Of a stretch of 64,000 bases of DNA, positions 26,330-64,000 are shown in pieces (position 1 is the stretch's first letter; every line of letters begins with the position of its first letter). The notes beneath the pieces are model-generated. The model worked only from the letters and a program-made list of their open reading frames with translations. It was not told the DNA's origin and searched no databases. The DNA comes from Limihaloglobus sulfuriphilus (GTDB taxonomy: Bacteria > Planctomycetota > Phycisphaerae > Sedimentisphaerales > Sedimentisphaeraceae): contig NZ_CP019646.1 in the NCBI RefSeq assembly GCF_001999965.1, forward strand, positions 434,001-498,000, written 5' to 3'. Both the position numbers and the translations under genes were made by a program.

Positions 26330-27584
26330 TATTACAAGGCGAACCTTTACCAAATCAGTTTTAGCAGGCGTATCAGCTTTTACAATAGTTCCCAGGCATG
26401 TTCTCGGCGGCAAAGGCTACATTGCTCCGAGCGAACAGCTGACCAGAGCCGTAATCGGCGTTGGCGGCATGGGACAGGCGCATCTGGTTTACCCCGGAGC
26501 AAAACTGCTCGCGGTATGCGATGTTGACAGAAACCGTTTACAATCAACACTTGCAAAGGTTGACAAAGACGTCAAAGGCTATACCGATTACCGTGAGGTT
26601 CTTGCCCGGCCGGATATTGACATTGTTCATATTCCAACCCCGCCTCACTGGCACGAAAGTATATCAATAGCCGCGGCCAGATCCGGCAAAGATATATGGT
26701 GTGAAAAACCTATGACCCGCACAATCGGTGAAGGGCGCAGAGTGGTGGACGCTGTCCAGCGAAACTCACGTATTTTCAGAGTTAACACATGGTTCCGTTT
26801 TGGAAGCCGTTTTTACGGAATGAAAACGCCTGTGGCTCCCATAAAAAAACTTGTGGACAGCGGTCTGCTCGGCTGGCCTTTGAAAGTCACAATCAGTGAA
26901 ACTACTGGTTTTACCTGGAAGTTTCAGTGGAGCGGTCTTACGCATCTGCCGCCTCAGCCTGTTCCTTCGGAGCTGGATTACGACATGTGGCTCGGACCCG
27001 CTCCATACAAGCCGTATCACCGTCACAGAACCCACGGCACATTCCGTGGTTATTGGGATTATGACGGCGGCGGACTTGGTGACATGGGCCAGCACTATCT
27101 CGATCCGGTGCAGTATATTCTGGGTAAGGACGACACGAGCCCTGTTTATGTTGAGGCCGACACTCCCGTTCAGCATCCTGACGCGGTAGGGCCGTGGCGA
27201 AGGATATATATGCGGTATCAGGACGGCTGCGAGATAATTCTTGACGGAGAAAACGTGGATAAGGACGCGGCATTTTTAGAAGGGCCCAACGGCAAACTGT
27301 ATCCCGGCTTTAAATCGGATATTCCGGATCTCGAAAATAAGCTGGCGGCTTTCCCCGACCCCAGAGAGCAGATTACAGATTTCTCGCAATCGGTTAGAGA
27401 ACGCAAAAAATTTGCTTTAAACGAAGCAAACGCTTTTCGTTCCTGTACGCTTGTAAATCTGGCAAAGATAGCGTTAATAACCAGAAGGCCTTTGCGGTTT
27501 GATTCGGTAAATCTCCGGTTTATTGATGATCAGCAGGCCGACCGCTTGATTGATCCGCCCGGGCGTGCCAAGTGGAGCGTTTAA
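26316..27584 (+). CDS. Gfo/Idh/MocA-family oxidoreductase with Tat signal
   Basis: A 422-residue oxidoreductase with a twin-arginine signal (NITRRTFTKSVLAGVSAFT), so probably exported folded with its cofactor. VIGVGGMGQAHL is the nucleotide-binding motif and CEKPMTR carries the catalytic Lys. This secreted class is common in planctomycetes and may use a tightly held NAD(P), as glucose-fructose oxidoreductase does. GGGAG precedes the start at 26316, which overlaps the end of the transporter gene. Confidence 0.87.
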   Translation: MNSNNITRRTFTKSVLAGVSAFTIVPRHVLGGKGYIAPSEQLTRAVIGVGGMGQAHLVYPGAKLLAVCDVDRNRLQSTLAKVDKDVKGYTDYREVLARPDIDIVHIPTPPHWHESISIAAARSGKDIWCEKPMTRTIGEGRRVVDAVQRNSRIFRVNTWFRFGSRFYGMKTPVAPIKKLVDSGLLGWPLKVTISETTGFTWKFQWSGLTHLPPQPVPSELDYDMWLGPAPYKPYHRHRTHGTFRGYWDYDGGGLGDMGQHYLDPVQYILGKDDTSPVYVEADTPVQHPDAVGPWRRIYMRYQDGCEIILDGENVDKDAAFLEGPNGKLYPGFKSDIPDLENKLAAFPDPREQITDFSQSVRERKKFALNEANAFRSCTLVNLAKIALITRRPLRFDSVNLRFIDDQQADRLIDPPGRAKWSV

Positions 27585-27609
27585 GAATTACATAAGATTT
27601 GAGGATAAA

Positions 27610-30600
27610 ATGATAGAAATTAAAAGGTTTCTCAGCGTTTTCGTACTGGCTTTCTCTTTTTTTGCAGTTTCATCTGCCGCAGCAGTACAAGTAGAAAATA
27701 TTATTGAACAGATGCCTGCACCAGATGCAAAGACTGAGAGGATGCTTTGCCAAGAGCTCGTAGAAGGCGGCCCGAAAACAGTCTTGCAGCTCTGTGGTCT
27801 TGTCGAGGCACCGGGCGAAATTGACGACTCAAAGGCACGTTACACTATTGCCGGACTTACTTCGTACGTAAACCGTCCACAGGCTGCCCCCGCCCAGCGA
27901 AAAATGTATGCAAGTGTTCTTCTGAGGTCTCTTAATGCGACTGATAACAAGGAAGTAAAGGCCTTTTTTATCAGCCAGCTCCAATACGTTGGAGATGATG
28001 GCAGCGTTGTTGATTTGGCCAGATACCTTGGTGATGAAAGGCTTAGCGAAGATGCCGCGATGGCGTTGACGGCAATAGGAACTCCAGCCGCCGAAAAAGC
28101 TCTGCTTAACGCTTTGGAGACGTCACCCGACGCGGCGGCAGCGCCGGTCATACAGGCTCTTGGAAAACTTCACAGCAAGGCTGCCGTCAGCCTGATTACG
28201 AAACATGCACAAAGTGGAAATGAGCTTGTAAGCAGAGTTGCGGCACGGGCTTTAGCTGAGATTGGCGATGAATCGTCTATTCCGTTAATTAAGAAGAGGC
28301 TCGAGACGGGTAACCTTTACGCTCAATCACAGGCACTGGCAGATTATACTCTTCTCGCTCGAAGGCTCGCTCAAAACGGTAATAACGCCGGCAGCGTCCA
28401 AATATGCGAAAATATAATCAATGGTGAATATGATCCGAATCATAAAGCATCGGCCTTGAGTCTTCTGGTTGAGATATCAGGCAGTGATTCGCTTGATTAT
28501 CTTGTAGATGCGGTTCAGAGTGAGAATTATCAGTTTCAATCGGCGGCTCTTGATTTAGCGGTAAAGCTGAAAAGTAAAGACGCCGGTAATCGCTGGCTCA
28601 ATCTTCTCGAACAAGCCTCGTCGCAGCTTCAGGTGAAAATTATTGAAATGCTGGGCAGAAGGGGAGGTAAGGATGTCTTAACTGATTTACGCGGCTTCAC
28701 TTCCGCCGGCGATAAGGCCGTGCGAAAGGCAGCTTTGCAATCAGTAGCTGATATCTCTCCTGAGACAGCCGCAGCTGATATCGTTAACGTTATTAAACAA
28801 GGCTCCCCTGACGATATTGAGTATGCTTTTGAACTGCTGCTTCAGTCGCCCTCGGAAACAGCTGTTTCGCGGGTCAGCGCGGTTTTAGGTGAATCTTCAA
28901 ACGCAGGCAAGGCGGCTTTTTTGGATTTTCTTGCCAGAAGGCGGGCTTACGGTGAGAAAGACAATATCTATCAATATGTATCCTCAGAAGATGAAAAGGT
29001 CTGCATCGCTGCAATTAAGGCTCTTGCCTATGTCGGCGGAGAGAATGAACTTGAAAAACTGATTGACGTTATGCTGACGGACGATTCTGCTCAGAAATGC
29101 TCTGAAGCGTCACGCACTATAATCAAACTTTCAAATGAGATAGAAGACGCAGATAAGAGAGCGGAACCGTTGTTAGAGGCAATGAACGATACGGGAGACA
29201 GCCAGAAAGCCCAGATACTGGCGATATTGCCATCAATAGGCGGAAAGGCAGCCCTGGCTGCGGTTGTCAGCTGTTTAGACAGTCCGGATAAAAAACTGCG
29301 GGAATCGGCTGTTAGAAGCCTTGCAAAATGGAACGGGACTGAAGCTGCCGATCCACTGTATAAAGTGGCATCTGAGGCGCAGGATTTGTCAGAGCATCTT
29401 ATAGCTGTATCTGCTTATATCAATCTGATAGACCGCTCTGATATGAAGCCGTCAGACAAACTGGCGCATTATGTGAAGGCTGAATCTGTCACCGAACATA
29501 CAGCTGTCAGGAAAAATATCCTTTCTAAAGTCTCCAAGGTCGGCACAGTTGACGCTCTGCGTTTTGCTGTAAAAAGACTTAATGACAGCGAACTAATCAA
29601 CGAAGCAACCGCTGCTGTCACGTCGATAGCCCTGCCGGGCAGCGAAAAGGATAAAGGTTTGATCCAGCCGGGAGTTGGTAAACTTCTTCTGGAGGCCTAC
29701 CCCGGAATTTCAGATGAAAAAGTCCGCCACAGCATTGATGCTCATGTAAAAGCGATAGCAAAAGCCGGTGTTTCTGAGAGTGCAGGGGACAAGTCTGACC
29801 CGCCGGCAGGTTTTGTTGAGCTTTTCAACGGCAAAGACTTAACCGGCTGGAAAGGCCTGCTTGCCAGACCGTATGACAATCCGGCGAAACGTTCGGAACT
29901 CAATAGCGATGAGCACGCTTCTCATCAGGCATCCGCCGATGATTTAATGCGTAAGCACTGGCATGTTGTTGACGGAATGCTCTATTTCGACGGCGGCGGC
30001 CACAGTCTTGCTACAGCCCGGGATTACGGCGACTTTGAAATGCTTGTTGACTGGAAACTTCTTCACGATAACGGCGACAGCGGCATTTACCTGCGAGGTT
30101 CTCCTCAGGTTCAGATATGGGATCCGGCTTATCATGAGAATATTGGTTCAGGCGGCCTGTATAATAATCAGAAAAACCCGAGTAAGCCGCTTGTAACGGC
30201 AGATAACCCGATTGGGCAGTGGAACAGGTTTCGCATTAAGATGATTGGGGAGAAGGTAACTGTCCATTTAAACGGACAGCTGGTTGTAGATAATGTTACA
30301 CTTGAAAATTACTGGGACCGGAGCCGGCCGATATTTGAATCTGAACAGATTGAACTGCAATGCCACGGTAACCCTGTATGTTTCAAGAACATATACATAC
30401 GTGAGCTGCCGCGTGAGGATGAATTTGTGCCGCTGTTCAACGGCCGCGATCTTGCCGGTTGGACGGGCGATACGCAGGGCTATGCGGTCGAAAACGGCAA
30501 CATTATATGCAAACCCGGCGGAGTTCTATATACAGAGAAACAGTATTCTGATTTTGTCCTCAAATTTGAGTTTAAGTTGACTCCCGGTGCCAATAACGGC

Positions 30601-32208
30601 CTTGGCATCCGTACGCCAATGAATGTAAATGCCGCGTACCATGGAATGGAACTTCAAATTATAGACAACTTTGCCGAAAAATATAACAATCTGAAACCCT
30701 GGCAGTACCACGGTTCGATTTATGGTGTTGCGGCCGCAGATTATAACGGCGAGCCGACAAAAACCTCTATTCTAAATCAGCCCGGTGAGTGGAACAGACA
30801 GATTGTTACCGCTGACGGGGACAATATAAAGGTTGTTTTAAACGGTGAAACTATTGTCGATGCTGATCTTGGCAAGATAGACTTAGAGAAGACTGCTGAC
30901 GGCAGGGAACACCCGGGTTTGAATAATAAATCAGGCCATATTGCTTTTCTCGGTCATGGGTCAGTGGTCGAGTTTCGCGACATCTTAATTAAGGAATTAA
31001 ATATCAAAGGACATAACATGACAGAAGATAAGGATTCCAAAAAACAGAGGGCAGTTGAGGCGGCCATAAACGGTCTTGATTTTCTGGTGCGGCATCAGAT
31101 AACCAATCACCGAAGTGCTGATCACGGCAGGTTTGTGAACGTGTATGACACATTAAAGAATGAAGCTGTATCATATACCACAAACTGGACAACCGGAGTC
31201 TCAACAGAAGTGATGCTTATCGGCCACAAACTGACCGGCGATCAAAAGTACCTGGACGCGGCAGAAAGGGCGGTAAAATACATCGCCAGCCTCCAGTATC
31301 TCGCCCCGGGGAGAATGCGCGGCGTTATCCGTGAATCAACCCCGCAGACCCAGGCAGCGCATCCCCGCGATGCCTTGACGGCAGCGTGGGCAATGCTCGA
31401 TTATTCGCAGTATGCCTCCGATGAAAAATATCTCGAGAAGTCTCTCTTATATGCAGACTGGTTTATAAATGTCGGCCTTGAAAAGGGATATCCGTACTGG
31501 ACAGTTCGTTTAGACGATGAGCCGTGGCTGCCTCAATGGTTTGGTTCTTTTCAGAGCGGCGGGGCGTTTTACTTTTTCAGGCTTTTTGACGTAACCGGCC
31601 GTGAAGAATATAAACAGGCCGGCTTGCAGATAATGGATTTCTACAATAAGTATCATCTAAGTGAGACAGGCGATGTTACTATTGTAGTGGATATAGAAAC
31701 CCGAAAACAGCTTAAAGGGCATATCGAGGCTCCCCAGTATAGTCCGTTAGGCTGGGAGGTTATGCACGAATATAATGACGATTTCGGTGCTTTGGCAAAT
31801 CTCGCCGCCTACAGGCAAACCCGTAATCAGGATTACTTGAATAACGCAGAGCGTTTTCTTAAGAAAATGATTTCATCACAGAGAGAAGACGGCGGCTTTG
31901 GGCCCAAAGATTATTCTGTCCCCAGTGCGGGCGGTTCAGTGCTGCTCGAACTCATGGCGGCCAGGGAGCTCGGGCTCACAGTGGGCTCATCTGACAATCT
32001 TGACAGGGCCCTCGATTATATCCTGGATCTTCAGATAACAGACCCTCAAAGTCCGGCCCGCGGCGCATTTAGAGGCTTTGACCACAACTATCAGATCAGC
32101 GGTTTCGCCAATACCCGTACGGCAACTTACGCCATTATGGGATTATTAAGATACGCCGGCGCGGCAGACCCGTTCTACTTCTTCGATTCAGAAAACATGA
32201 AAGAATAA
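27610..32208 (+). CDS. Large exported multi-domain protein: HEAT repeats, two DUF1080 domains, alpha/alpha toroid
   Basis: A 1532-residue protein. Residues 1-26 form a signal peptide. Residues 70-720 are helical HEAT-like repeats. Two DUF1080 (3-keto-disaccharide hydrolase/concanavalin-like) domains follow, starting with VELFNGKDLTGW near 735 and VPLFNGRDLAGW near 940. The rest, from about 1140, is an alpha/alpha toroid with repeated AAERAVKYIASL, AMLDYSQYAS and AERFLKKMISSQ helices, as in six-hairpin glycosidases and terpene-cyclase-like folds. At the junction an AAAGG ribosome site precedes an in-frame ATG at 31018 (residue 1137), so the toroid may also be made alone or was once a separate gene. 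Role in glycan breakdown is inferred. Confidence 0.8.
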   Translation: MIEIKRFLSVFVLAFSFFAVSSAAAVQVENIIEQMPAPDAKTERMLCQELVEGGPKTVLQLCGLVEAPGEIDDSKARYTIAGLTSYVNRPQAAPAQRKMYASVLLRSLNATDNKEVKAFFISQLQYVGDDGSVVDLARYLGDERLSEDAAMALTAIGTPAAEKALLNALETSPDAAAAPVIQALGKLHSKAAVSLITKHAQSGNELVSRVAARALAEIGDESSIPLIKKRLETGNLYAQSQALADYTLLARRLAQNGNNAGSVQICENIINGEYDPNHKASALSLLVEISGSDSLDYLVDAVQSENYQFQSAALDLAVKLKSKDAGNRWLNLLEQASSQLQVKIIEMLGRRGGKDVLTDLRGFTSAGDKAVRKAALQSVADISPETAAADIVNVIKQGSPDDIEYAFELLLQSPSETAVSRVSAVLGESSNAGKAAFLDFLARRRAYGEKDNIYQYVSSEDEKVCIAAIKALAYVGGENELEKLIDVMLTDDSAQKCSEASRTIIKLSNEIEDADKRAEPLLEAMNDTGDSQKAQILAILPSIGGKAALAAVVSCLDSPDKKLRESAVRSLAKWNGTEAADPLYKVASEAQDLSEHLIAVSAYINLIDRSDMKPSDKLAHYVKAESVTEHTAVRKNILSKVSKVGTVDALRFAVKRLNDSELINEATAAVTSIALPGSEKDKGLIQPGVGKLLLEAYPGISDEKVRHSIDAHVKAIAKAGVSESAGDKSDPPAGFVELFNGKDLTGWKGLLARPYDNPAKRSELNSDEHASHQASADDLMRKHWHVVDGMLYFDGGGHSLATARDYGDFEMLVDWKLLHDNGDSGIYLRGSPQVQIWDPAYHENIGSGGLYNNQKNPSKPLVTADNPIGQWNRFRIKMIGEKVTVHLNGQLVVDNVTLENYWDRSRPIFESEQIELQCHGNPVCFKNIYIRELPREDEFVPLFNGRDLAGWTGDTQGYAVENGNIICKPGGVLYTEKQYSDFVLKFEFKLTPGANNGLGIRTPMNVNAAYHGMELQIIDNFAEKYNNLKPWQYHGSIYGVAAADYNGEPTKTSILNQPGEWNRQIVTADGDNIKVVLNGETIVDADLGKIDLEKTADGREHPGLNNKSGHIAFLGHGSVVEFRDILIKELNIKGHNMTEDKDSKKQRAVEAAINGLDFLVRHQITNHRSADHGRFVNVYDTLKNEAVSYTTNWTTGVSTEVMLIGHKLTGDQKYLDAAERAVKYIASLQYLAPGRMRGVIRESTPQTQAAHPRDALTAAWAMLDYSQYASDEKYLEKSLLYADWFINVGLEKGYPYWTVRLDDEPWLPQWFGSFQSGGAFYFFRLFDVTGREEYKQAGLQIMDFYNKYHLSETGDVTIVVDIETRKQLKGHIEAPQYSPLGWEVMHEYNDDFGALANLAAYRQTRNQDYLNNAERFLKKMISSQREDGGFGPKDYSVPSAGGSVLLELMAARELGLTVGSSDNLDRALDYILDLQITDPQSPARGAFRGFDHNYQISGFANTRTATYAIMGLLRYAGAADPFYFFDSENMKE
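31006..31020 (+). promoter_or_regulatory. Internal ribosome site and start codon inside the large fusion gene
   Basis: AAAGG (31006-31010), 7 nt, then an in-frame ATG (31018-31020) exactly between the second DUF1080 domain and the toroid. DUF1080 proteins usually end with the IKEL-type strand seen just before it. Confidence 0.5.
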
Positions 32209-45924: not shown

Positions 45925-47163
45925 ATGTTAAAAGCGATAAAAATAAAAGGGTTATTCGGTTCTTTTGACTATGACATTAAACTCAAGGACGAGGGGATAA
46001 CAATCCTGACCGGGCCAAACGGCTATGGCAAGAGTACTATACTTAAGGCTGTCTATGCATTGGCGAGCCGGAACCCTTTCTTTTTTATTGACCTTTATTT
46101 CAGCGAGATGCTTCTTGAGTTTAATGACCGTCTGCCGGTAAAAATCTTCAAGAAAAACCAGGATGTTGAGATAGTTGACGGCGACAACGAGCCTGTGGTC
46201 TTGAATTTTGACAGGATAACTGACGAGCTTGAACAGAATCTTAAGAACAGTAACTACAAACGTATCGGCGGTGACCGCTGGATCGACAGGCGAACCGACA
46301 GAATTATTGATACAGAGATGCTTGTAAGCCGTATCGGCTCAGAAGAATGCGCCCTGAGGGACATCTTTCCGGATGTGCCTGATGTTTATCTGATAACCGA
46401 TCAGCGGCTTTTCCGTAAAACATCCGGCGACGGAAGGCTGATACTTTCTAACGAAAACCAGGATGTTGACCATTTCAAAGAGGCTATATGGGAGTATGTA
46501 AAGGATCTGGGCAATCAGATCACCAATACTCTCGCCGAGGCGACTAAAGTTTCTCAGGGACTTGACAGCAGTTTTCCAAAGCGGCTTTTTTCGCAGAAAC
46601 ATGGTGTTGACAAAGAAGAGTTTGACCGGCGGTTCAATCGTATAAAACGAGTTCAGTCTTCCCTCAATCGCTATGGGCTGGCAGTTTCGGTTGTAGATGA
46701 TGAGCCTGTTTACAGCGAGGAGAACGCAAAGGCCCTGAAGGTCTATCTTGATGACACAGAAAAGAAACTCAAAGTATTTGAGCCGCTTCTGATGCGTCTT
46801 GAGCTTCTGACCGAAATACTTAACAAACGCGGCTTCGTTAATAAAGAGGCGGTAATCAAGGGGCAAAAAGGACTTTGTTTCAAGACTAAGGAAGGCCGGT
46901 CACTGAAGCTGAAACGCCTTTCTTCCGGAGAGCAGCAGGAGGTTGTGATGATTTACGAGCTGCTCTTTAACGTTAAGCCCGATACGTTGGTAATGGTCGA
47001 TGAGCCCGAGATTTCACTGCATGTTGCCTGGCAGAAACAGTTTATCGAGGATCTGCTGCGGATTGCCAGTATGCAGAGGATAAATGTCATCGTGGCCACC
47101 CATTCGCCGCAGATAATCAACAACCGCTGGGATCTTACCATTGACCTGGAGGATATCTCTTAA
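45925..47163 (+). CDS. AAA (SMC/OLD-like) ATPase, AriA-like partner of a DUF4435 protein
   Basis: A 412-residue soluble ABC-type ATPase. Walker A is GPNGYGKST (K36), the signature is LSSGEQQ at 332-338, Walker B is LVMVDEPE with D359/E360, and the switch His is H393 in ATHSPQII. A predicted coiled helical region lies between about 185 and 300. No nuclease domain follows, unlike OLD proteins, but the next gene supplies a separate TOPRIM-like domain. The same two-gene order, AAA15-type ATPase then DUF4435, defines PARIS antiphage systems (AriA/AriB). GGAG lies 7 nt before the start. The gene lies close behind hisF and could be read from the same promoter. Confidence 0.85.
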   Translation: MLKAIKIKGLFGSFDYDIKLKDEGITILTGPNGYGKSTILKAVYALASRNPFFFIDLYFSEMLLEFNDRLPVKIFKKNQDVEIVDGDNEPVVLNFDRITDELEQNLKNSNYKRIGGDRWIDRRTDRIIDTEMLVSRIGSEECALRDIFPDVPDVYLITDQRLFRKTSGDGRLILSNENQDVDHFKEAIWEYVKDLGNQITNTLAEATKVSQGLDSSFPKRLFSQKHGVDKEEFDRRFNRIKRVQSSLNRYGLAVSVVDDEPVYSEENAKALKVYLDDTEKKLKVFEPLLMRLELLTEILNKRGFVNKEAVIKGQKGLCFKTKEGRSLKLKRLSSGEQQEVVMIYELLFNVKPDTLVMVDEPEISLHVAWQKQFIEDLLRIASMQRINVIVATHSPQIINNRWDLTIDLEDIS

Positions 47164-48011
47164 TGAGAAGATACCTCGATGAAAATGACATCATGAACGA
47201 GATCAGGCTCGAACTGCGACATCCTTCTACCCGTGATAATGTCTGGGTGCTGGTGGAGGGGCCGACAGATCAGAGACTTTTCTCCAAACTCCTCGATGCT
47301 GATAAGGTGCGGGTTGAGATCGTGCACGGTGGTGGTGTGGAGCCGCTGCTAAGAGCCATCGAGAAACTTGCACGGGAGACAGACAGAATTGTTGCCATCC
47401 GTGACTCTGACTTTATACGGCTTGAGGGGAAATTCCCAGACCAGCAGGACCTCTATATTACAGACGCCCACGATGCGGAGATGATGATGGCGGCGAGCAA
47501 TCCAACATTCCGCTCGCTTGTTTCCGAGTATTTGACAAACAGGCTCGATGATTATCTCGATTTGAGGGATGAAATTCTGCGATCAATCGCCTTTGCCGGC
47601 GCCGCCAGGTGGCTCAATCACATCAATTCATTGACCATAAATTTCAGCAAACTTGGTCTGGGCAGCTGTTATCGCGGCAAACAACTCAGGCTGCACAAAA
47701 AAAAGTACCTCCGCAAACTTCACGCGGCATCTCCCAACAGGGTGCGGGATCTGAATCTTGAAGAGGTTGAAAAGGCGATGCGGAAGTTTAAAGATTTGTT
47801 TAACCTCTGCCATGGACATGACTTCGAAAAGGTTGTCTCGCTTCATATCAGTCAGGTAACTTCAAAAGATATCAGGGATGACGATGTCGGCAAGACTCTC
47901 CGCCTGGCCTATTCATTTATTGAATTCGCAAAAACAGAACTGTATAAGTCGCTTCGCGGCTGGGAGCGGGAACACGGCTATAAACTTTTTTCAAAGGCAC
48001 ATTCAGCTTAA
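47163..48011 (+). CDS. DUF4435 TOPRIM-like protein, AriB-like
   Basis: A 282-residue protein with the TOPRIM pattern: Glu E32 in LVEGPTDQRLF and the acidic pair D81/D83 in AIRDSDF; DAHDAEMMM at about 101-109 follows. DUF4435 proteins include AriB, the toxic nuclease effector of PARIS, which is released when its ATPase partner senses a phage anti-restriction protein. Here the start codon overlaps the stop of the ATPase gene, so the two are coupled. Nuclease activity is inferred from the acidic residues. Confidence 0.82.
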   Translation: MRRYLDENDIMNEIRLELRHPSTRDNVWVLVEGPTDQRLFSKLLDADKVRVEIVHGGGVEPLLRAIEKLARETDRIVAIRDSDFIRLEGKFPDQQDLYITDAHDAEMMMAASNPTFRSLVSEYLTNRLDDYLDLRDEILRSIAFAGAARWLNHINSLTINFSKLGLGSCYRGKQLRLHKKKYLRKLHAASPNRVRDLNLEEVEKAMRKFKDLFNLCHGHDFEKVVSLHISQVTSKDIRDDDVGKTLRLAYSFIEFAKTELYKSLRGWEREHGYKLFSKAHSA

Positions 48012-53744: not shown

Positions 53745-55226
53745 ATGCGTGTACTATACCTTGATCTTGATACGTTAAGACCCGATCACCTGGGCTGTTA
53801 CGGTTATCACAGAAACACTTCCCCCAACATCGACAGAATCGCGGCTCAAGGTGTCCGCTTTGAAAATTATTATTGCTCTGATGCGCCTTGCCTGCCTTCG
53901 AGAACGGCAATGATGAGCGGACGTTTCGGCATACATACCGGCGTTGTCGGCCATGGCGGAAGCGCTGCTGATATGAGAATAGACGGCGAAGGCCGCGGCT
54001 TTAAATCAAGCCTTGACTCTGAATGTCTGCCCGCGATTTTCCGGCGTGAAAACATGAGAACTGTGCTTGTCAGCCCGTTCGCCGAGAGGCATTCAGCCTT
54101 TAACTTTTATGCCGGTTTCACCGAAATGTACAATACCGGCAAAAGCGGCATGGAGTCGGCCGAAGAAGTTTCACCTGTTGCCCTTGACTGGATAAAAAGA
54201 AATGCAAAAGATGATAACTGGTATCTGCACATAAACTACTGGGACCCCCACACGCCTTACAGGGCTCCGGAGGATTTTGGTGACCCGTTTAAAGATGATC
54301 CGCTGCCGGCCTGGCTGACAGAAGATGTTCTGGAGCAGCACAAATCGCATGTTGGGCCGCATTCCGTGCATGAGATAATGATGTTCCACGGAACACCGGA
54401 TCCGAAATACCCGCGACATCCCGGTACTTTGTATAATATGGACGCGCTGCGGAAGATGATCGACGGTTACGACTGCGGCATACGTTACATGGATGAACAT
54501 ATCGGACGCTTGTTTGATGAGCTGGAAAAGCAGGGTGTGCTTGATGATATAATGATTATTATCAGCGCCGACCACGGCGAGAACCTCGGCGAGCTGGGGA
54601 TTTATGGTGAACACGGCACGGCTGATCGGCCGACCTGCCGGATACCTATGATAATACGCCGCCCCAACGGCAAGCCGGCTGTAGATACGCAGCTAAGGTA
54701 CAATCTCGACCTGGCGCCTACACTGGCAGAGATGTTCTGCCAGGATAAACAGCCCCGCTGGGACGGTGAGAGTTTTGCCGGAGTGCTTGACGGCAGTCAG
54801 GAACCTGATGCAAGAGATTATATTGTCATCAGTCAGTGTGCCCATGTCTGCCAGAGGTCTGTAGTTATGGGTGATTGGCTGTATATCCGCACCTATCATG
54901 ACGGGTATCATCTTTTCCCGGATGAAATGCTCTTCAACACCAAAGACGACCCGTATGAGCAAGAAAATCTGTCAGAAGCCCGCCCCGATGTTTGCGGCAG
55001 GGCGGCCAGGTATCTGGAACAATGGCATGAAGAAATGATGAGTAAAATGCAGTGCCCTGTTGATCCGCTTAACACGGTTATCTCTGAGGGCGGGCCGTTT
55101 CACGCTAAAGGCCATTTGCGGGACTACGTTAAACGCCTTGAAGATACGGGACGCGGCTGGGCTGTGAGTGAGTTAAAAAACAGGTATCCGGGCGAATTTT
55201 CTTGTAAATCGAATATTTCGAATTAA
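53745..55226 (+). CDS. Sulfatase without signal peptide
   Basis: A 493-residue formylglycine-type sulfatase. The modified Cys is C49 in CLPSRTAMMSG, and metal ligands include D7/D9 in LDLDTLRPDH and the later SADHGENLGE. No export signal is present, so it should act in the cytoplasm, possibly on imported sulfated sugars. Cys-type sulfatases need a maturase (FGE or anaerobic anSME); none is in the window. Confidence 0.88.
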   Translation: MRVLYLDLDTLRPDHLGCYGYHRNTSPNIDRIAAQGVRFENYYCSDAPCLPSRTAMMSGRFGIHTGVVGHGGSAADMRIDGEGRGFKSSLDSECLPAIFRRENMRTVLVSPFAERHSAFNFYAGFTEMYNTGKSGMESAEEVSPVALDWIKRNAKDDNWYLHINYWDPHTPYRAPEDFGDPFKDDPLPAWLTEDVLEQHKSHVGPHSVHEIMMFHGTPDPKYPRHPGTLYNMDALRKMIDGYDCGIRYMDEHIGRLFDELEKQGVLDDIMIIISADHGENLGELGIYGEHGTADRPTCRIPMIIRRPNGKPAVDTQLRYNLDLAPTLAEMFCQDKQPRWDGESFAGVLDGSQEPDARDYIVISQCAHVCQRSVVMGDWLYIRTYHDGYHLFPDEMLFNTKDDPYEQENLSEARPDVCGRAARYLEQWHEEMMSKMQCPVDPLNTVISEGGPFHAKGHLRDYVKRLEDTGRGWAVSELKNRYPGEFSCKSNISN

Positions 55227-55844: not shown

Positions 55845-57008
55845 TTACAGTGATTTCAGGTTGCCTAAGTGCTGTTTTCTGAATTCGTTGGGGCTTGTGC
55901 CGGTTTCACGTGTAAAGAATCGTGTCAGATGGGGTACTTCGCTAAAATTCAGCCTGAGAGCAATCTGCGAAACAAGCAGATTAGTTTCCAAGAGCAGTTT
56001 TTTTATTTCCTCAAGGCGGGCCCTCCGTATTTCTTCGTGAACAGAGCGGCCCAGATGCTTCTTAAACCGCCGTTCAAGCCCTCTTCGGTGAATAGCCGCC
56101 GCCTCTGCCACTTCGTCCACCTGAATGAACCGCTTTGAGTTCATTCGTATATAGCTCAATGCCCTGGCAACCGTTTCGTCCTCAATCATAAATATATCGG
56201 TTGACTGACGTGCCTTAACGCCGAGTGTCTGGACAACAACGTTTTCGTATGGTCCCGGCCGGCCCTGCATCATTCTGTCGAGAACCTCGGCGGCTTCGTA
56301 GCCGGCTTTTTCCGCGTTGACCGATATACTCGAGAGCGGCGGCTGAGTGAGCTCGCAGATCGTCTCGTCATTGTCAACTCCTAATACCGCAACCTGTTCT
56401 GGGACAACAAGTTCGGCAATTTTACAGGCCTCAAGTACGTGCTTGCCCCGTTCGTCGTTACACGCCATTACCGCCACAGGTTTGGGCAGAGATACCAGCC
56501 AGTCGGCAAGCTCTTCCTGCTCTCTTTTCCAGTGCTTATGAAGAAACAAAAATGGTTTTTCGTACAAAGCCGGCTCTATGCCCTCTGCCTTGAGCCTTTC
56601 TGCGAAATATTTCGCTCTGATTTGCGACCATTCGAGGTTGCTGAAACTGCAATACGCGAAATTTCTGAATCCGGCGTTGAGGAAATATTCAACAGCGGTG
56701 CAGCTTTCGTTTTTCCAGTCACCTATAACGTTAGGGTAGCCTGGGATTTCTGCGTTGGTTGTAACTATCACAGCCGGCAAATCCGGCGGCAGCAGCTTGT
56801 GAAGGTTTTCTGATGTGTCAAAGTATGTAATAATCCCGTTGGCGTTCCAGTTTTTAAGAAGCGGCAAAACTTCATCAGGTTCGCCGCGTTCATTAAAAAA
56901 CGACCACGGCCCGTGCAGGCGGGAATAACGGGCTATTCCGCGAAGAAGGCCCCTGCAGTAAGATGCCAGTGCCGGCACCAGAACTATTATTCTCGGAAGT
57001 TCTTTCAT
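55845..57008 (-). CDS. AraC-family regulator with XylR/LacI-type sensor domain
   Basis: A 387-residue regulator. Residues 1-270 resemble the periplasmic-binding fold of XylR (RGIARYSRLHGPWSFF, ACNDERGKHVLEACK, VAVLGVDNDETICEL). The C-terminus carries two AraC HTH motifs (VDEVAEAAAIHRRGLERRFKKHLG and SQIALRLNFSEVPHLTRFFTRETG in part). XylR-type proteins activate sugar operons upon ligand binding. It is divergent from the lipoprotein-sulfatase operon, its likely target. The start at 57008 has a GGA 7 nt upstream. Confidence 0.88.
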   Translation of the reverse strand: MKELPRIIVLVPALASYCRGLLRGIARYSRLHGPWSFFNERGEPDEVLPLLKNWNANGIITYFDTSENLHKLLPPDLPAVIVTTNAEIPGYPNVIGDWKNESCTAVEYFLNAGFRNFAYCSFSNLEWSQIRAKYFAERLKAEGIEPALYEKPFLFLHKHWKREQEELADWLVSLPKPVAVMACNDERGKHVLEACKIAELVVPEQVAVLGVDNDETICELTQPPLSSISVNAEKAGYEAAEVLDRMMQGRPGPYENVVVQTLGVKARQSTDIFMIEDETVARALSYIRMNSKRFIQVDEVAEAAAIHRRGLERRFKKHLGRSVHEEIRRARLEEIKKLLLETNLLVSQIALRLNFSEVPHLTRFFTRETGTSPNEFRKQHLGNLKSL

Positions 57009-57132
57009 CGTCAATCCAATTATCTTCTGGTTTTAAATCTGTATATACTATAAATCATTGTCGGTTTATTGCAAATTTATTTTCATTACCCGTCACTTGT
57101 CGCAAAAATATAAAAAATAGTGCAGAAAATGG

Positions 57133-57212: not shown

Positions 57213-59639
57213 ATGAACAGAAAGAAATCTTTTTTATTTATTTCAATTGCGGTTTTATGCTGTCTTTTTGCATCGTGCAGCAGTTGTGAGTGCGGAGGCG
57301 TGGAAAAAATGATGACAAGAGGCCCGTACGGGTTTTTATGGTGGGAGGATGGGTTTTCTAATCTTAAGCCGTTGGGCAGCAGAGAGCTAAACATACAAAC
57401 CAGCAGTTACGGCCTGTCTTTTAATGTGGAAACTGCTGATATAACCCGTTTTGGAAGGATAAAGACAGATTTCAGGGCAGACGATGTCCCCGGCCAGGGT
57501 AACCGGATCGTGCAGAAACTTGAAGAGTCTGAACTGAATATGGAGCTTAAAATCGACGGCAGGCTTTACACCTGCAAGGGCGGGGTTGATTTTACATCAC
57601 AGATTGAGTACAAAAAAATACCCTACAGGCTGATAAATACAGGCCGTTATGTTCAAAGATATGACCTTCTGGGCATTTTATTCGAAGACAGTGACGGCAA
57701 TCCTGCCCCTGCGGATGTTCGCCTTGAGCTTCTGTCCTGGCCGGATAGTCTTACACTTGTTCTTGATGCTGAAGCGGAAAGCGAATTTGAAAATTTTGAG
57801 ATGTCGTTGAAGCTAAAGGGCAGTGGTAAAGTCTGGCTGGAAGCGGATAAAACTTTTGAGAATGTAAAGCGGGCTGATTCCTGTAAAGTATTCAGCACAT
57901 GGTCTGCGGATACCGAATCGGAATCTGTTGAAGAACATATCGAAGTCTCGGCAAAGGCGAAGGAATCTCTTTCTGCCGGATTCGAAAAGCAGCAGGACTG
58001 TTTTGTTATTGATATACCCAGTGATTTCTTTTATGTAGGCAAGCCGCATCAGTCGGTTGAGTCTTGTGATGTTTTTATACGAAATGATTCTGAGAAGAAA
58101 CTGCCGGTGAAGCTGTTTTTCCGTATGGAATATGAGCCGGGTCAGGGCGCATCAGTTATCGGCACTGCTCCCATACTCTGTTACGCAGACGGGCGGCCAA
58201 CGGGTGATTTTGTCCAGATATCCAAAAACTGGCACCGCCCGGACGACGGGGAGTATCCTGAATATGTGGATAACTGGTTTTACGCATATACAATTGTAGA
58301 GATGCCCGCAAAATCCTGTTCGCAATTTAAGTACAAGACTGTCAACGGTTTTCTCGACGGAGTCCCGATTGTTTCTCATTCTCAGCTTTGTCTGCTCGGC
58401 TGGGGCGGCAACCAGCTCTGGGAACAGGTGGCGATAGGCAACTGGGGTGAGGCGATATGTTATGACCCGGATATCGGCCTGAATCGCAGTTTCATAGATG
58501 ATGTCCGCCCGCTTATGGTCTGGTCGATGGGTGATGAAGACCGAATTAAATGGGGCTGGACAAACAATGTGGGCGGCGGCAATTTTCTGCAATATTATGA
58601 CCAGAGCGGCCAGGAGCAGAAACTTGTGTCGGTCAAAACGCTGCATCGCGTAAACGGGCCAAACTGGACAGAGGCGGTTTACAGCGGGATTACACGGGAT
58701 GGGGCGATCAAAGCGGAGATCACGGTTTCAACGCCACGCTGCGAGGACTATAACCGCAGCAGGCACCGTTTTCGGTACGAAGTTCTCAAGCCGGTTAATT
58801 TTTCGCGGCTTGCATTTTACCAGATGGGCGCAGACAACTACAATACCAGTGTTTTCGATCTGATGGCAAGAGGCAGCGCAGATGGCCTTGTGGAAGAATG
58901 GAAGCCCGAGATGGGCGGCAAAAAATATCACCGCAAATCCATTGCCTGCAAAGGGGATCTGCCGTGGTTCTCGATACATAAGACTACCGATTGCAACAGT
59001 TTCAGAGAGCGGAAAGGCGCTTTGGCAAACAGAGGCCTGATCGTTCGTGACTATTCTGCCAGAATCAACGGCACAGATTACAATTACCCGTTCATGAGCA
59101 ATTTCGGAGTGGAGAACGGCTCACCGAGCAGCAATGTTGAGCTCTCTGCTCCAGAGGGCGTCAGCACGCTCAAACCCGGGGATTTTGTGGAATGCAGTCT
59201 GGATTTTATAGTTCTGCCAAAGAAGGCTGATGATTATTACGGCACTAACGAGACTCTCAAGGCTTATCTTGAGAAATACGAGGATACCTGGCGGCCTGTT
59301 TACAGAGAGGCTGTTCTCAACGACCTAAAGGTTCAGATGCACTCAGGTATTCTTGTGGAGAATTACCCTCTTGTAGTTTGTGTCGATGAAGAACAGAAAG
59401 CAGAGTTTACAGTAACCGGCGGGGCGGGCTATGTGCCTGTGATTTTCGCCGATGTTACGTCGGGCAGAGGCTTCCGGCTTGTTGAAATAACAGAGGGCAA
59501 ACAGGTTGATATTCATGACAATATAAATTATCAGCTTGATAAAACGTGCTCTGATACTTACAGAGTAACTTACAATATCAGCCTTGATCCTGATAACGGG
59601 AAATCACATGCCAGAAGACTGAAATTTACTGTTAAATAG
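57213..59639 (+). CDS. Large lipoprotein of unknown function in a sulfatase operon
   Basis: An 808-residue exported lipoprotein: MNRKKSFLFISIAVLCCLF is the signal and C17 or C22 in FASCSSCEC the lipidation site. The mature protein is mostly beta-strand with many Trp, Tyr and Gly (WGGNQLWEQVAIGNWGEAI, WSMGDEDRIKWGWTNNVGGG), as is common in carbohydrate-active proteins. I recognise no glycosidase or lyase signature. It heads the operon with two sulfatases and an esterase-like gene and is divergent from the AraC/XylR regulator, so it may be a new polysaccharide-degrading or binding protein. GAGGAAA precedes the ATG at 57213. Confidence 0.75.
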   Translation: MNRKKSFLFISIAVLCCLFASCSSCECGGVEKMMTRGPYGFLWWEDGFSNLKPLGSRELNIQTSSYGLSFNVETADITRFGRIKTDFRADDVPGQGNRIVQKLEESELNMELKIDGRLYTCKGGVDFTSQIEYKKIPYRLINTGRYVQRYDLLGILFEDSDGNPAPADVRLELLSWPDSLTLVLDAEAESEFENFEMSLKLKGSGKVWLEADKTFENVKRADSCKVFSTWSADTESESVEEHIEVSAKAKESLSAGFEKQQDCFVIDIPSDFFYVGKPHQSVESCDVFIRNDSEKKLPVKLFFRMEYEPGQGASVIGTAPILCYADGRPTGDFVQISKNWHRPDDGEYPEYVDNWFYAYTIVEMPAKSCSQFKYKTVNGFLDGVPIVSHSQLCLLGWGGNQLWEQVAIGNWGEAICYDPDIGLNRSFIDDVRPLMVWSMGDEDRIKWGWTNNVGGGNFLQYYDQSGQEQKLVSVKTLHRVNGPNWTEAVYSGITRDGAIKAEITVSTPRCEDYNRSRHRFRYEVLKPVNFSRLAFYQMGADNYNTSVFDLMARGSADGLVEEWKPEMGGKKYHRKSIACKGDLPWFSIHKTTDCNSFRERKGALANRGLIVRDYSARINGTDYNYPFMSNFGVENGSPSSNVELSAPEGVSTLKPGDFVECSLDFIVLPKKADDYYGTNETLKAYLEKYEDTWRPVYREAVLNDLKVQMHSGILVENYPLVVCVDEEQKAEFTVTGGAGYVPVIFADVTSGRGFRLVEITEGKQVDIHDNINYQLDKTCSDTYRVTYNISLDPDNGKSHARRLKFTVK

Positions 59640-59654
59640 TAATGGAGTAATATA

Positions 59655-61136
59655 ATGGATTTGAGCAGAAGAAATTTTATCAAAACTGCATGTTTATGTT
59701 CAATCTTTCCGGCTTCGGCGATAAAATCATCTTTTGGTGCCGCGGAAAGGCCCAAAGCTGACAGACCGCCTAATATCCTGTTTATACTTACAGACGACCA
59801 GGGCTATGGGGATATCGGCCGCCACGGTCACCCTTTGCTCAAGACGCCGAATATTGACAGGCTATACGATGAGAGTGTGCGTTTTGATAATTTCTACGTA
59901 AGTCCGTGCTGTGCCCCGACGCGGGCAGCTCTCTTAACCGGAATGCACGAGTTTAAGAACGGCGTTACGCACACAATTGAGCCGCGGGAGCATCTCAACA
60001 AAGACGCTGTAACCCTTCAGGAGCTTCTGAAAAAACGCGGCTATGCTACCGGCCATTTCGGCAAATGGCATCTGGGTAACAGCCCGGGATATTTCGCGCA
60101 TGAACGCGGGTTTGATGTTTCAGTTCGACCTTGCGGCGTGCATACATCAAGCAATTTTGATGCGGGGATAATCCGCAACGGAAAACAGGAAGACTCAAAA
60201 GGATTCCGTGAGGATGTCCTGTTTGACGAGGCGATAAATTTTATAGAAGACAATAAAGACAAGCCTTTCTTTTGTTATCTGGCGACTTTTTCGCCTCACA
60301 CACCTCTTGTGGCTCCAGAGAAATTTATAAAGCCCTACAAAGGCAAAACGCGTGATGATATCGCTGTTTTTCTGGGTATGATAGCAAATATTGACTGGAA
60401 TGTAGGGCGGATAATGTCCAAACTTGACCAGCTTGGGCTTGACGATAACACTATTGTTATGTTTATGAACGACAACGGCCAGACGGTAGGTCTCGACCTG
60501 TATAACGCCGACATGCGTGGGTGCAAGTGCACAATCTGGCACGGCGGCTCAAGAGCGATGTCGTTCTGGAGATGGAAGGGCGTCTGGAAGCCCAGAACAG
60601 AAGATGCCCTCACAGCCCATCTTGATGTTCTGCCGACACTTACAGAGCTCTCTGGTGCAGAAATCCCCGCAGGGACACGCAAACGGCTTGACGGTTACAG
60701 CCTTGTTGAGCTGCTTGAATCCAAAGACGGTGATTTCCCCCGTGACCGCAAGCTATACGAACATGTCGCCAGATGGCCCAATGGTATGGCTGATTCTCAT
60801 AAATACGCCATGGCGGCTGTGCGGCAGGGAAATTACCTTTATGTTCGCAGCCGGCCCTGTGATAATCCCGAATGCACGCCCAAGGTGATGGGTAATCAGT
60901 GCCATACACTGCGGCTCGTTGAAAAAGGAGCAACGGCGGCTACATATACACGCGACAATGCGCAGTTTCACTGGGGTGTTACTCCCGGCGACGGCTGGGC
61001 ACTCTACGATACGAAAAAAGACCCCGGGTGCATGAATGACATCTCTAAAAAACATCCAGTGCTTGTAAAACAGCTGAAAGCCGATTATGATAAGTGGTGG
61101 GACACTGTCCGTCCGGCTATGATAAACGAAGAATAA
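59655..61136 (+). CDS. Exported sulfatase
   Basis: A 493-residue arylsulfatase-family enzyme. The signal MDLSRRNFIKTACLCSIFPA has a twin-Arg form. The formylglycine Cys is C86 in CCAPTRAALLTG; TDDQGYGD near residue 46 and MFMNDNGQ supply metal ligands; FGKWHLG is the second family signature. Expected to remove sulfate esters from glycans outside the cytoplasm. Sits 15 bp after the unknown lipoprotein. Confidence 0.92.
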   Translation: MDLSRRNFIKTACLCSIFPASAIKSSFGAAERPKADRPPNILFILTDDQGYGDIGRHGHPLLKTPNIDRLYDESVRFDNFYVSPCCAPTRAALLTGMHEFKNGVTHTIEPREHLNKDAVTLQELLKKRGYATGHFGKWHLGNSPGYFAHERGFDVSVRPCGVHTSSNFDAGIIRNGKQEDSKGFREDVLFDEAINFIEDNKDKPFFCYLATFSPHTPLVAPEKFIKPYKGKTRDDIAVFLGMIANIDWNVGRIMSKLDQLGLDDNTIVMFMNDNGQTVGLDLYNADMRGCKCTIWHGGSRAMSFWRWKGVWKPRTEDALTAHLDVLPTLTELSGAEIPAGTRKRLDGYSLVELLESKDGDFPRDRKLYEHVARWPNGMADSHKYAMAAVRQGNYLYVRSRPCDNPECTPKVMGNQCHTLRLVEKGATAATYTRDNAQFHWGVTPGDGWALYDTKKDPGCMNDISKKHPVLVKQLKADYDKWWDTVRPAMINEE

Positions 61137-61160: not shown

Positions 61161-62906
61161 ATGAATAATGTAAATACGACAAGACGGTCTTTTCTCAAGA
61201 CTACTGTTTCTGGCGCTGCCGGATTTGCCGGTATGTCAATGTTTGGCGGATGTCAGGCAGCAAAAAACTTTTTCAGCTCAAACCCAGAGAATCGCCCCAA
61301 TATACTGCTTGTTATAACAGATGATCAGGGATATGGCGATTTGAGCCTGCACGGCAATCCGGATCTTGAGACCCCCAATATCGACGATTTCGGGGAAAAT
61401 AGCGTTCAGTTTACGAATTTTTATGTCAGTCCGGTATGCGCTCCAACACGTTCAAGCCTGATGACAGGCCGCTATCACATGCGAACTGGTGTTGTTGATA
61501 CCTATATCGGCAGGGCGATGATGCGCAGCGAAGAGGTCACACTTGCCGAGATGCTTAAACGCCTTGGATATACAACAGGAGTCTTCGGCAAATGGCACCT
61601 TGGCGACAATTACCCGATGCGCCCGCAGGAACAGGGCTTTGATGAGGTTGTGATGCACATGGGTGGAGGGCTTTGCCAGCCGTCGGACTATCCGGGCAAC
61701 AGCTATTTTGACCCGATGTTGATGCACAACGGGCAGTGGCAGAAGTATCACGGCTACTGTATGGATGTCTATACTGATCTTACGATCGATTTTATGAAAA
61801 AGAATAAAGACAAGCCGTTTTTTGCATACCTGGCAACCAATACCCCGCATTCTCCCCTTCAGGTTCCTGATGAGTATCTTGAGCAGTACAGCAGTTTAGG
61901 TCTGAAAGATAAAACCGCCCGGCTTTACGGCATGGTAAAAAATATTGATGATAATTTCGCACGGCTTATGGATGTTTTGAAAAAGCAAGGGCTTGCTGAT
62001 AATACAGTTGTGATTTTCATGACCGATAACGGACCGTGCCCGTCCTCAATTGAAGATGACAGATACATGGCAGGTCTTCGCGGCAGGAAAGGCACTGTCT
62101 ATGAGAATGGCATCAGGGTGCCGTTCTTTATTCGCCGGCCGGGGGAAAACGATGCCGGCAGAAAAGTTGAGTGGCCCTCGGCTCACATCGATGTCCTGCC
62201 GACACTGCTTGAGATGTGCGGCGCAGACAAGGCCAAAAACATTGACGGCGTGAGCCTGATGCCGCTGCTGAATAACGAGAAAAAATCCCTGGGCCAGAGG
62301 AATCTTTATTTCCAATGGCACCGCGGAGATGAACCAGAGCTTTACAGGGCATTTGCCGTTCGCGGCAGCCGCTATAAACTCGTGCAGGCAAACGGCGTAG
62401 AGGAAGATGCGGATTTTGAGCATAAATTTGAGCTGTTTGATATTGTAAAAGACCCCGGCGAAAAACATGACATCTCCGCCGCACACCCGGAAATAGTGAA
62501 ACGTATGAAAGATGAATATAGACAATGGTTTAGCGATGTTTCATCTAAAGGGTATGAGCCGCCGCTTATAATAATAGGAACAAAGCACGAAAACCCCGTT
62601 ACCCTTACCCGTCAGGACTGGAGGGACACGAAAGGCTGGCAGGATGAACATATCGGCAGGTGGTATGTTGAAAACGCGGCTGACAGGAAATATCAGATTA
62701 AACTCAGATTCCCAGCTTCATACGATAACACCGGCAGGGCATATCTGGTTATTAACAGCCAAAGATATTCGCTATCCGTTCCCGCGGGTTTAGACGAGAT
62801 AATTTTCACAGATATTCAAATCAGCAAAGGGCCGGCAACGGTCAAAGGTTGGATTCAGGCCGGCAGTGTAACTAACGGTGTAAAATTTATCGATATATCT
62901 TTCTAA
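61161..62906 (+). CDS. Exported sulfatase with C-terminal extra domain
   Basis: A 581-residue sulfatase. The N-terminus has TTRRSFLKTTVSG, and a lipobox-like FGGC gives possible lipidation at C31. The formylglycine Cys is C93 in CAPTRSSLMTG; TDDQGYGD, FGKWHLGDN and FMTDNGP are present. The last 110 residues (from about 470) form a beta-rich domain as in the arylsulfatase A-like sulfatases with C-terminal carbohydrate-contact domains. Differs enough from its neighbour to suggest a different sulfate position. Confidence 0.92.
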   Translation: MNNVNTTRRSFLKTTVSGAAGFAGMSMFGGCQAAKNFFSSNPENRPNILLVITDDQGYGDLSLHGNPDLETPNIDDFGENSVQFTNFYVSPVCAPTRSSLMTGRYHMRTGVVDTYIGRAMMRSEEVTLAEMLKRLGYTTGVFGKWHLGDNYPMRPQEQGFDEVVMHMGGGLCQPSDYPGNSYFDPMLMHNGQWQKYHGYCMDVYTDLTIDFMKKNKDKPFFAYLATNTPHSPLQVPDEYLEQYSSLGLKDKTARLYGMVKNIDDNFARLMDVLKKQGLADNTVVIFMTDNGPCPSSIEDDRYMAGLRGRKGTVYENGIRVPFFIRRPGENDAGRKVEWPSAHIDVLPTLLEMCGADKAKNIDGVSLMPLLNNEKKSLGQRNLYFQWHRGDEPELYRAFAVRGSRYKLVQANGVEEDADFEHKFELFDIVKDPGEKHDISAAHPEIVKRMKDEYRQWFSDVSSKGYEPPLIIIGTKHENPVTLTRQDWRDTKGWQDEHIGRWYVENAADRKYQIKLRFPASYDNTGRAYLVINSQRYSLSVPAGLDEIIFTDIQISKGPATVKGWIQAGSVTNGVKFIDISF

Positions 62907-62929: not shown

Positions 62930-64000
62930 TTGAAGTCAAAACACATGTCAAATAGCAGTTTATATGCTTTTGCGGTTTTATTTCTTGTTGGGTCGGTATG
63001 CGTGTTCGGTCAGGGGCGAGTGCCGGCATCCGGCGGCGGGCTTGAGACGGGTCTGGTCTGGGATGTTGATAATTTAAAATCTCAGCCCGTGCGAACCTGG
63101 CCTGATACTGACTGGCAGGTTGACGGCGTGAAGTCTTTATACTATTGCGGTCTTGACTACAAAGGCAGGCCGACACGGGTCTTTGCGTATCTGGGAGTGC
63201 CGAAGGGGGCTTCTGTTGAGAAACCAGTTCCCGGCGTTGTCTGCGTACATGGCGGCGGCGGTACGGCGTTCGCTGAATGGGTCAAGATATGGAACCAGCG
63301 CGGCTACGCGGCGATATCAATGGATGTTGAAGGGCAGGTTCCTGATAAACAGGATGACAGGCACAGGCGGCCCCAGCACAATTGGCACGGCCCGAGGAGG
63401 GCGGGGATATTCGATGATATTAGAGAAAATATTGAGGATCAGTGGATGTTTCACGCTGTTGCCGATGTTATCCTGGCTAATACGCTGCTTGGCAGTATGC
63501 CGGAGGTTGACGGCGAGAGAGTGGGGCTTACCGGTATATCCTGGGGAGGCGTTATATCCAGTATAGTTGTCGGCGTGGATGACAGGTTTGCTTTCGCGGC
63601 GATCGTGTACGGCTGCGGTTATCTCTTTGAGGCTCAAAATCACTATACTACAGCTTATGAGGGCATGGGGCAGCAGTTAGCCCCAAAGTGCCGAAATCTC
63701 TGGGATGGTTCGAGCTATCTGGTGAATGCCGATATGCCGATATTATGGCTCAACGGTGTCAACGACAATCACTTTCCACCGCCCATATTCAACAAGTGTT
63801 ATCTCGATACAAAGGACAGCGCAGTAATGTCCATGCAGCTTGACCTGAAGCACAGCCACCAGCACGGCTGGGCTCCGGAAGAAATTTACGCTTTCGCAGA
63901 CAGCATCGCCAAAAACGGCAAACCGCTGCCCAGAGTGATTGAGACTGGCAAAAACGGCGAAGTATGGGTGAGATTCAGCGGTGAGAATCCGCCGGTTAAA
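62930..64000 (+). CDS. Alpha/beta hydrolase, acetyl-xylan-esterase-like (truncated at window end)
   Basis: The reading frame stays open to the end of the window (357 codons), so the C-terminus is missing. A signal peptide fits a TTG start at 62930, since KSKH then gives the positive N-region; an ATG at 62945 would leave none. VVCVHGGGGTAFAEW is the oxyanion region, GISWGG the nucleophile elbow, and ILWLNGVNDNHFPP the acid-containing strand; KHSHQHGW may hold the catalytic His. The fold is that of acetyl-xylan esterases and related deacetylases, consistent with glycan debranching beside the sulfatases. Confidence 0.8.
   Translation, partial: MKSKHMSNSSLYAFAVLFLVGSVCVFGQGRVPASGGGLETGLVWDVDNLKSQPVRTWPDTDWQVDGVKSLYYCGLDYKGRPTRVFAYLGVPKGASVEKPVPGVVCVHGGGGTAFAEWVKIWNQRGYAAISMDVEGQVPDKQDDRHRRPQHNWHGPRRAGIFDDIRENIEDQWMFHAVADVILANTLLGSMPEVDGERVGLTGISWGGVISSIVVGVDDRFAFAAIVYGCGYLFEAQNHYTTAYEGMGQQLAPKCRNLWDGSSYLVNADMPILWLNGVNDNHFPPPIFNKCYLDTKDSAVMSMQLDLKHSHQHGWAPEEIYAFADSIAKNGKPLPRVIETGKNGEVWVRFSGENPPVK

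Follow-up and report, generated by a model that had tools for sequence, protein, structure and literature searches.

The window, the whole 64,000-nucleotide stretch of Limihaloglobus sulfuriphilus DNA analysed here, encodes an 808-residue protein (P0001) that is a member of an unclassified family. Two sulfatase genes and then an esterase gene follow on the same strand, separated by gaps of 15, 24, and 23 bases. The gene for a regulator lies upstream of P0001, with another sulfatase gene further upstream. These genes and the features of P0001 are listed below by window position.

53745 to 55226, forward strand: third sulfatase of the cluster, with a CLPSR motif (PF00884, motif)
55845 to 57014, reverse strand: divergent XylR-type regulator with a LacI-like sensor and an AraC helix-turn-helix (PF13377, PF12833)
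57213 to 59639, forward strand: P0001, 808-residue protein of an unclassified family (ORF)
57213 to 57278, forward strand: signal peptide of P0001 with the lipobox LFAS-C (Cys22) (pattern match; helix at residues 3-23 in the model)
57315 to 58022, forward strand: N-terminal all-beta region, residues 35-270 (model; 23% mean identity to relatives)
58056 to 58346, forward strand: middle beta region, residues 282-378, with a conserved Q-x-S-K-N-W-H motif at 335-341 (model, conservation)
58368 to 59381, forward strand: beta supersandwich, approximately residues 386-723, proposed catalytic domain (model, structure search)
58449 to 58508, forward strand: proposed active-site stretch with invariant E413, D430, and R432 (80 of 80 relatives and the outlier L096)
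58746 to 58757, forward strand: invariant D512-x-x-R515 (80 of 80 relatives and the outlier L096)
59655 to 61136, forward strand: S1-type sulfatase with a CAPTR motif, 15 bases downstream of the P0001 gene (PF00884, motif)
61161 to 62906, forward strand: S1-type sulfatase with a CAPTR motif (PF00884, motif)
62930 to 64000, forward strand, continuing 195 bases beyond the window end: AXE1-like carbohydrate esterase (PF05448)

Beyond the edge of the window, the opposite strand carries genes for a GH29 alpha-L-fucosidase and an SSF symporter, together with two further sulfatase genes. Within 20 kb here there are five sulfatases, compared with 0.4 expected under even spacing (P = 6e-5); sulfatases may cluster in any case. 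The sulfatase at 53745 to 55226 has no signal peptide evident by eye. In the genome as a whole there are 79 PF00884 matches (78 above the cut-off) and six PF01120 matches (one weak). With their listed start codons, the convergent fucosidase and symporter ORFs (L005:12224-15362, reverse strand) share 77 bases. Two other features of the window lie apart from this cluster. An AAA_15 ATPase (PADLOC AriA, E = 5.7e-29) adjoins a DUF4435/TOPRIM-like protein (PADLOC AriB, E = 3.5e-14; PF14491) at 45925 to 48011 on the forward strand, and the two are a predicted PARIS-like anti-phage defence pair. A 1552-residue ORF at 27550 to 32208 (forward strand) contains both HEAT repeats and two stretches that resemble 3-keto-disaccharide hydrolases (PF06439, E = 5.7e-83).

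The P0001 gene starts with ATG, and a Shine-Dalgarno-like GAGGA is situated 11 bases upstream; use of an alternative GTG start, 18 bases further upstream, would give a protein of 814 residues. LFAS-C22 agrees with the lipobox pattern, and P0001 is probably secreted and lipid-anchored. No family matched P0001 in Pfam or NCBIfam (E up to 1) or in PADLOC (E up to 0.01), and no PDB sequence matched at E up to 10. A search of PHROGs returned noise only (E = 0.3). The S1 sulfatase domain (PF00884) is absent from P0001 by Pfam search, and the protein is a neighbour of sulfatases rather than one of them. Phenylalanine, tryptophan, and tyrosine make up 11.8% of its residues, against 8.2% (s.d. 2.5) across 513 ORFs of more than 300 residues from related loci. 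A previous sequence-only reading of this DNA had described an unrecognised, aromatic-rich lipoprotein of 808 residues at 57213 to 59639, next to sulfatases and an esterase. The gene is real and placed as described, and it is unrecognised as far as Pfam, NCBIfam, PADLOC, and PDB sequences are concerned. Its aromatic enrichment is mild, as the adjoining sulfatases, at 10-11%, come close to the same content.

P0001 represents a widespread bacterial family that has no name in the searched databases. A first scan of genome contigs with P0001 alone as the query retrieved no relative (16 stretches), whereas a later scan with an alignment (A2) confirmed 279 relatives from 422 candidate stretches, the best 80 of which were retained. 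Relatives were confirmed by tblastn against the candidate stretches, to which the threshold of E ≤ 1e-3 refers, and the loci were found with two patterns (residues 334-340 and 449-457). With 279 relatives in one genome scan, the observation of this protein is more than chance. Neither viral contigs (39 stretches) nor plasmids yielded relatives. A search of open-access literature found no description of the family; given that the family is nameless, this is no proof of absence.

According to record titles, the relatives derive mostly from Planctomycetota, Verrucomicrobiota, Hydrogenedentota, and Armatimonadota, in addition to Lentisphaerae/Victivallales and Flammeovirga. One is titled 'Nealsonbacteria', which may reflect a binning error, and some of the isolates bear names that point to peat, groundwater, or lakes. 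An alignment (A3) of 52 sequences was assembled from P0001 and 51 of the 80 loci; the other 29 loci had partial, split, or similar ORFs or were simply unselected, and all 80 were aligned for the analysis of residue invariance. Within the phylum Planctomycetota the family is patchy, being detected in 7 of 392 genomes with the A3 profile and in 6 of 392 with P0001 alone.

Members of the family vary in their accessory features. LamG matches occur in 13 of the 52 aligned members by Pfam, and 13 of 52 have 110-128 additional residues, matching LamG, inserted in the N-terminal region after residue 217. At E up to 0.01, the remaining Pfam matches among the 52 members comprise Laminin_G_2 in seven and two weak singles; NCBIfam gave one model, TafC, in 13 of 52, perhaps the same members that carry LamG. 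The lipobox pattern matches three of the 80 relatives, two of them credibly, and two further lipoboxes were noted by eye (L008, L009). Lipidation was rejected as a family trait on these counts, so the designation of lipoprotein suits P0001 itself rather than the family in general. The L. sulfuriphilus genome also encodes a paralogue of 1157 residues (L004:7732-11205, reverse strand), which shares 40% identity with P0001 over residues 249-805 and 29% over residues 30-199. It has a C-terminal LamG domain; inspection by eye indicates dockerin-like repeats and the lack of a lipobox. Neither PF00884 nor PF01120 has a match in its 19 kb region. A more divergent relative of 825 residues (L096:3402-5879), 20% identical to P0001, may mark a sister subfamily. 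A GH95 fucosidase gene is situated approximately 3.5 kb away, and the two ORFs that separate them look unrelated.

An AlphaFold2 model of P0001, built from the 52-sequence alignment (pLDDT 89.8, pTM 0.91), is almost all beta, as had been anticipated from the sequence. It comprises an N-terminal region, a middle region (residues 282-378), a large domain (residues 386-700), and a C-terminal beta region. When modelled separately (residues 380-728; pLDDT 90.3, pTM 0.90), the large domain is predicted to form a galactose-mutarotase-like supersandwich. Its best structural match is to MdoD/OpgD of GH186 (Z 17.1, 254 residues aligned, 3.9 Å), followed by the GH38 mannosidase Ams1, over a C-terminal stretch (Z 16.5, 243 aligned), and PL26 (Z 15.6, 261 aligned, 4.1 Å; Z 16.3 with the whole model). 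The GH174 endo-1,3-fucanases 8jd7 and 9k1g match at Z 14.1, with 251 residues aligned of a 510-residue chain (4.4 Å) and 250 of a 449-residue chain (4.3 Å). PL17 reaches Z 14.0 with the domain and HepC Z 12.6 with the whole model. Two sets of matches were discarded or weak: poor global superpositions headed the whole-model Foldseek list, which was left out of the assignment, and the viral structure library gave weak matches only, the best by E-value having a high r.m.s.d.

A supersandwich is often an accessory domain without catalytic function. The accessory domains of GH38 and LacZ score Z 12.4-16.5, and matches within 1 Z were counted as tied. Given these ties and the scores of LacZ stretches, which reach 13.8, fold alone is no proof of catalysis. 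P0001 might instead be a non-catalytic glycan-binding or surface-attachment protein that would hold the polymer for the sulfatases and the esterase, a role consistent with these accessory matches, the inserted LamG of 13 of 52 members, the C-terminal LamG of the paralogue, and the lipobox of P0001. No Pfam model matches P0001, those of binding domains included, which argues against such a role. As for the rest of the protein, a separate helical or barrel catalytic domain of the GH38 or GH2 kind is absent from the model, which is beta except for the signal helix and short helices. No other catalytic fold was recognised in structure searches with the whole model and the large domain; the N-terminal residues 35-380 have no assigned fold and may conceivably have a catalytic role as well.

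Conservation is concentrated in the large domain. Mean identity of the 51 relatives to P0001 is 55% over residues 380-470, a stretch that is largely loop in the model, 51% over 671-705, and 40% over 471-670; it is 31% over 706-808, 29% over 275-379, and 23% over 35-270. E413, D430, R432, D512, and R515 are identical in all 80 relatives and lie outside the patterns used to search for loci. The conservation of Q335, S337, K338, W340, W449, and N452 was in part selected by those patterns. The L096 outlier, the alignment of which requires insertions near E413, keeps K338, E413, D430, R432, D512, R515, D657, and R698. W403, Y490, R532, Q537, Y543, and W585 are invariant in the 80 relatives and cease to be so once the outlier is added. 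Five charged residues, three of them acids, in every relative would seem to exceed the normal need of a binding protein. Their invariance makes an enzyme more likely than a binding protein: P0001 probably has catalytic activity, and a purely binding function appears unlikely. The arrangement E413 / D430-x-R432 / D512-x-x-R515 on a predicted supersandwich suggests an enzyme that cuts polysaccharides, with the roles of individual residues assigned provisionally.

Among enzymes of this fold, GH186 (OpgD/OpgG, PF04349; beta-1,2-glucanases) is the best match to P0001 and bears its catalytic residues on the supersandwich. The likeness is confined to the fold, and scores close to it are reached by other folds of the superfamily. 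CAZy families are defined by sequence, and on that basis the kinship was rejected: PF04349 was found neither in P0001 (E up to 1) nor in the 52 members (E up to 0.01), and hhalign gave probabilities of 0.1 and 0.3 with a GH186 alignment of seven sequences. P0001 also differs from GH186 in its gene setting and its extra N-terminal beta regions. The catalytic residues of OpgD are D300, R359, and D388 (PMC10514313), and on that numbering all three fall inside the matched chain range of the structural alignment (94-421). An alignment of P0001 to OpgD made by eye was suggestive but unsupported and was discarded.

The GH174 endo-1,3-fucanases share the supersandwich, and the neighbours of P0001 suggest a fucan setting; accessory domains score similarly to the GH174 match. 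Profile searches of PDB sequences (A3, A6; E up to 10) retrieved no GH174 or PL26 chain, 8jd7 and 9k1g being assumed present in that library. In the GH174 enzyme Fun174A, the mutated acids are D119, E120, and E218 (PMC11943901), which would lie within the matched range of 8jd7 (46-372) if its numbering is the same. P0001 may resemble GH186 and GH174 as a supersandwich enzyme without a barrel, and sequence tests place it in neither.

The match to PL26, an exo-rhamnogalacturonan lyase (5xq3, 5xqo), raises the alternative that P0001 is a polysaccharide lyase. The supersandwich would then cut a uronic-acid-containing polymer by beta-elimination, a conserved Tyr, His, or Lys serving as base and acid and an Arg, Asn, or Gln neutralising the carboxylate. 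PL26 is among the top matches, PL17 and HepC also appear, and candidate residues are conserved (Y490, Y543, R432, R515, and R532 in 80 of 80 relatives; K338 in 79 of 80, with one gap). The GH186 score is at least as high, however, and the supersandwich fold does not distinguish lyases from hydrolases. Furthermore, no uronic-acid enzyme was detected in the 10 cluster representatives scanned or among the 25 of 97 families listed for adjacent ORFs. We consider a lyase rather unlikely and tentatively prefer a hydrolase, an assignment that falls a little short of an even chance.

To examine the genetic context of the family, 594 ORFs of at least 180 residues around the 80 loci were classified using the window's own neighbours as seeds. 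ORFs were picked by length, without a gene finder, and neighbour counts are not mutually independent; 233 ORFs were near (within two genes) and 270 far (four or more genes away). AXE1-like esterases of the type in the window account for 11 of 233 near ORFs and 1 of 270 far ORFs (P = 0.0018), all 11 being on the same strand; in all, 13 of the 80 loci contain 14 such ORFs. The difference is not significant for GH29 (6 near and 2 far, P = 0.15), which occurs as nine ORFs in eight of 80 loci, all nine on the same strand. Likewise, it is not significant for sulfatases (6 near and 3 far, P = 0.31), which are present in nine of 80 loci; searching with the window's three sulfatases returned 11 ORFs, distributed over 10 of 80 loci. 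Across the family, the partner with significant linkage is the AXE1-like esterase, and the sulfatase link is local.

Other comparisons were made by an unbiased Pfam scan and across genomes. Among the 25 of 97 families listed for 96 of the 125 adjacent ORFs, Pfam matches include DLH (5), AXE1 (4), GH106 rhamnosidase (3), and GH29 (3). All four are missing from the 25 of 147 families listed for 96 of the 270 distant ORFs, which include SASA (2), the PF00756 esterase (2), and GH95 (1). Single matches may be hidden in both sets, given the share of families listed. GH29 is encoded in five of seven family-positive genomes of the phylum and in 124 of 385 others (P = 0.041; P = 0.093 when the outlier genome is omitted), a comparison that rests on seven genomes. 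In individual genomes, two sulfatases are on the family contig of G386, one of them directly upstream on the same strand; an AXE1/DLH esterase is directly upstream on the same strand in G134; and GH29 is approximately 3 kb away on the same strand in G133. By contrast, the genes beside three close relatives (L014, L015, L018) do not encode sugar enzymes; they are for a GGDEF protein and a kinase and include one of pseudopilin type.

These data refine what had been proposed from the sequence. The sulfatase operon exists at the P0001 locus and is not borne out as a feature of the family. The broader suggestion of a new glycan-active enzyme or binding protein gains from the lack of a family match, the GH186-like supersandwich, the invariant acids, and the setting among esterase, fucosidase, and sulfatase genes; it is qualified by the local nature of the sulfatase link and by the few relatives that are lipidated.

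The esterase link also bears on whether the family has already been characterised under another name. A candidate is a fucoidanase from the verrucomicrobium Luteolibacter algae H18, an organism reported to deacetylate fucoidan (PMC11943901, PMC7699409, PMC8997789, PMC7356697). In these sources, the enzyme is listed as unclassified (PMC11943901) and was tested on deacetylated fucoidan (PMC8997789). The host phylum is common among the 80 loci, many of which are titled Verrucomicrobia or its orders, and the esterase link is found in such loci. No direct link between this enzyme and P0001 was found, and we regard the identity as improbable.

Our preferred reading, held with slightly less than even confidence, is that P0001 is a depolymerase of an unclassified CAZyme family that acts on an acylated, here sulfated, deoxyhexose-rich polysaccharide. 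The C-terminal beta supersandwich (approximately residues 386-700) would be the catalytic domain, and the long loops of residues 397-460 together with the Q-x-S-K-N-W-H motif would form the active site. E413 and D430 are the candidate acid/base pair; R432, D512, R515, and K338 may bind substrate or control charge. P0001 would most likely hydrolyse internal bonds of a 6-deoxyhexose-rich polysaccharide, either fucan-like or rhamnose-containing, and at this locus a fucan-like substrate is possible. The esters of such a polymer would need removal too: the co-directional sulfatases and the AXE1-like esterase may take off sulfate and acyl groups. Trimming of oligosaccharides would fall to the convergent GH29 fucosidase and sugar uptake to the SSF symporter, and the divergent regulator would control the gene set.

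Fucose-rich sulfated polysaccharides are described as slow to degrade, tied to carbon sequestration, and acted upon by poorly understood enzymes (PMC12786026, PMC13174399). The family described here, with at least 279 relatives lacking a Pfam or NCBIfam name and a link to esterases, provides defined proteins and residues to test. It is plausible, with somewhat less than even confidence, that it is a new and widespread family of depolymerases, in which a supersandwich-borne E413 / D430-x-R432 / D512-x-x-R515 site unlike that of GH186 or GH174 cuts esterified deoxyhexose-rich polysaccharides in concert with a dedicated esterase. If true, this would add to the few families known to have catalysis reside in the supersandwich.
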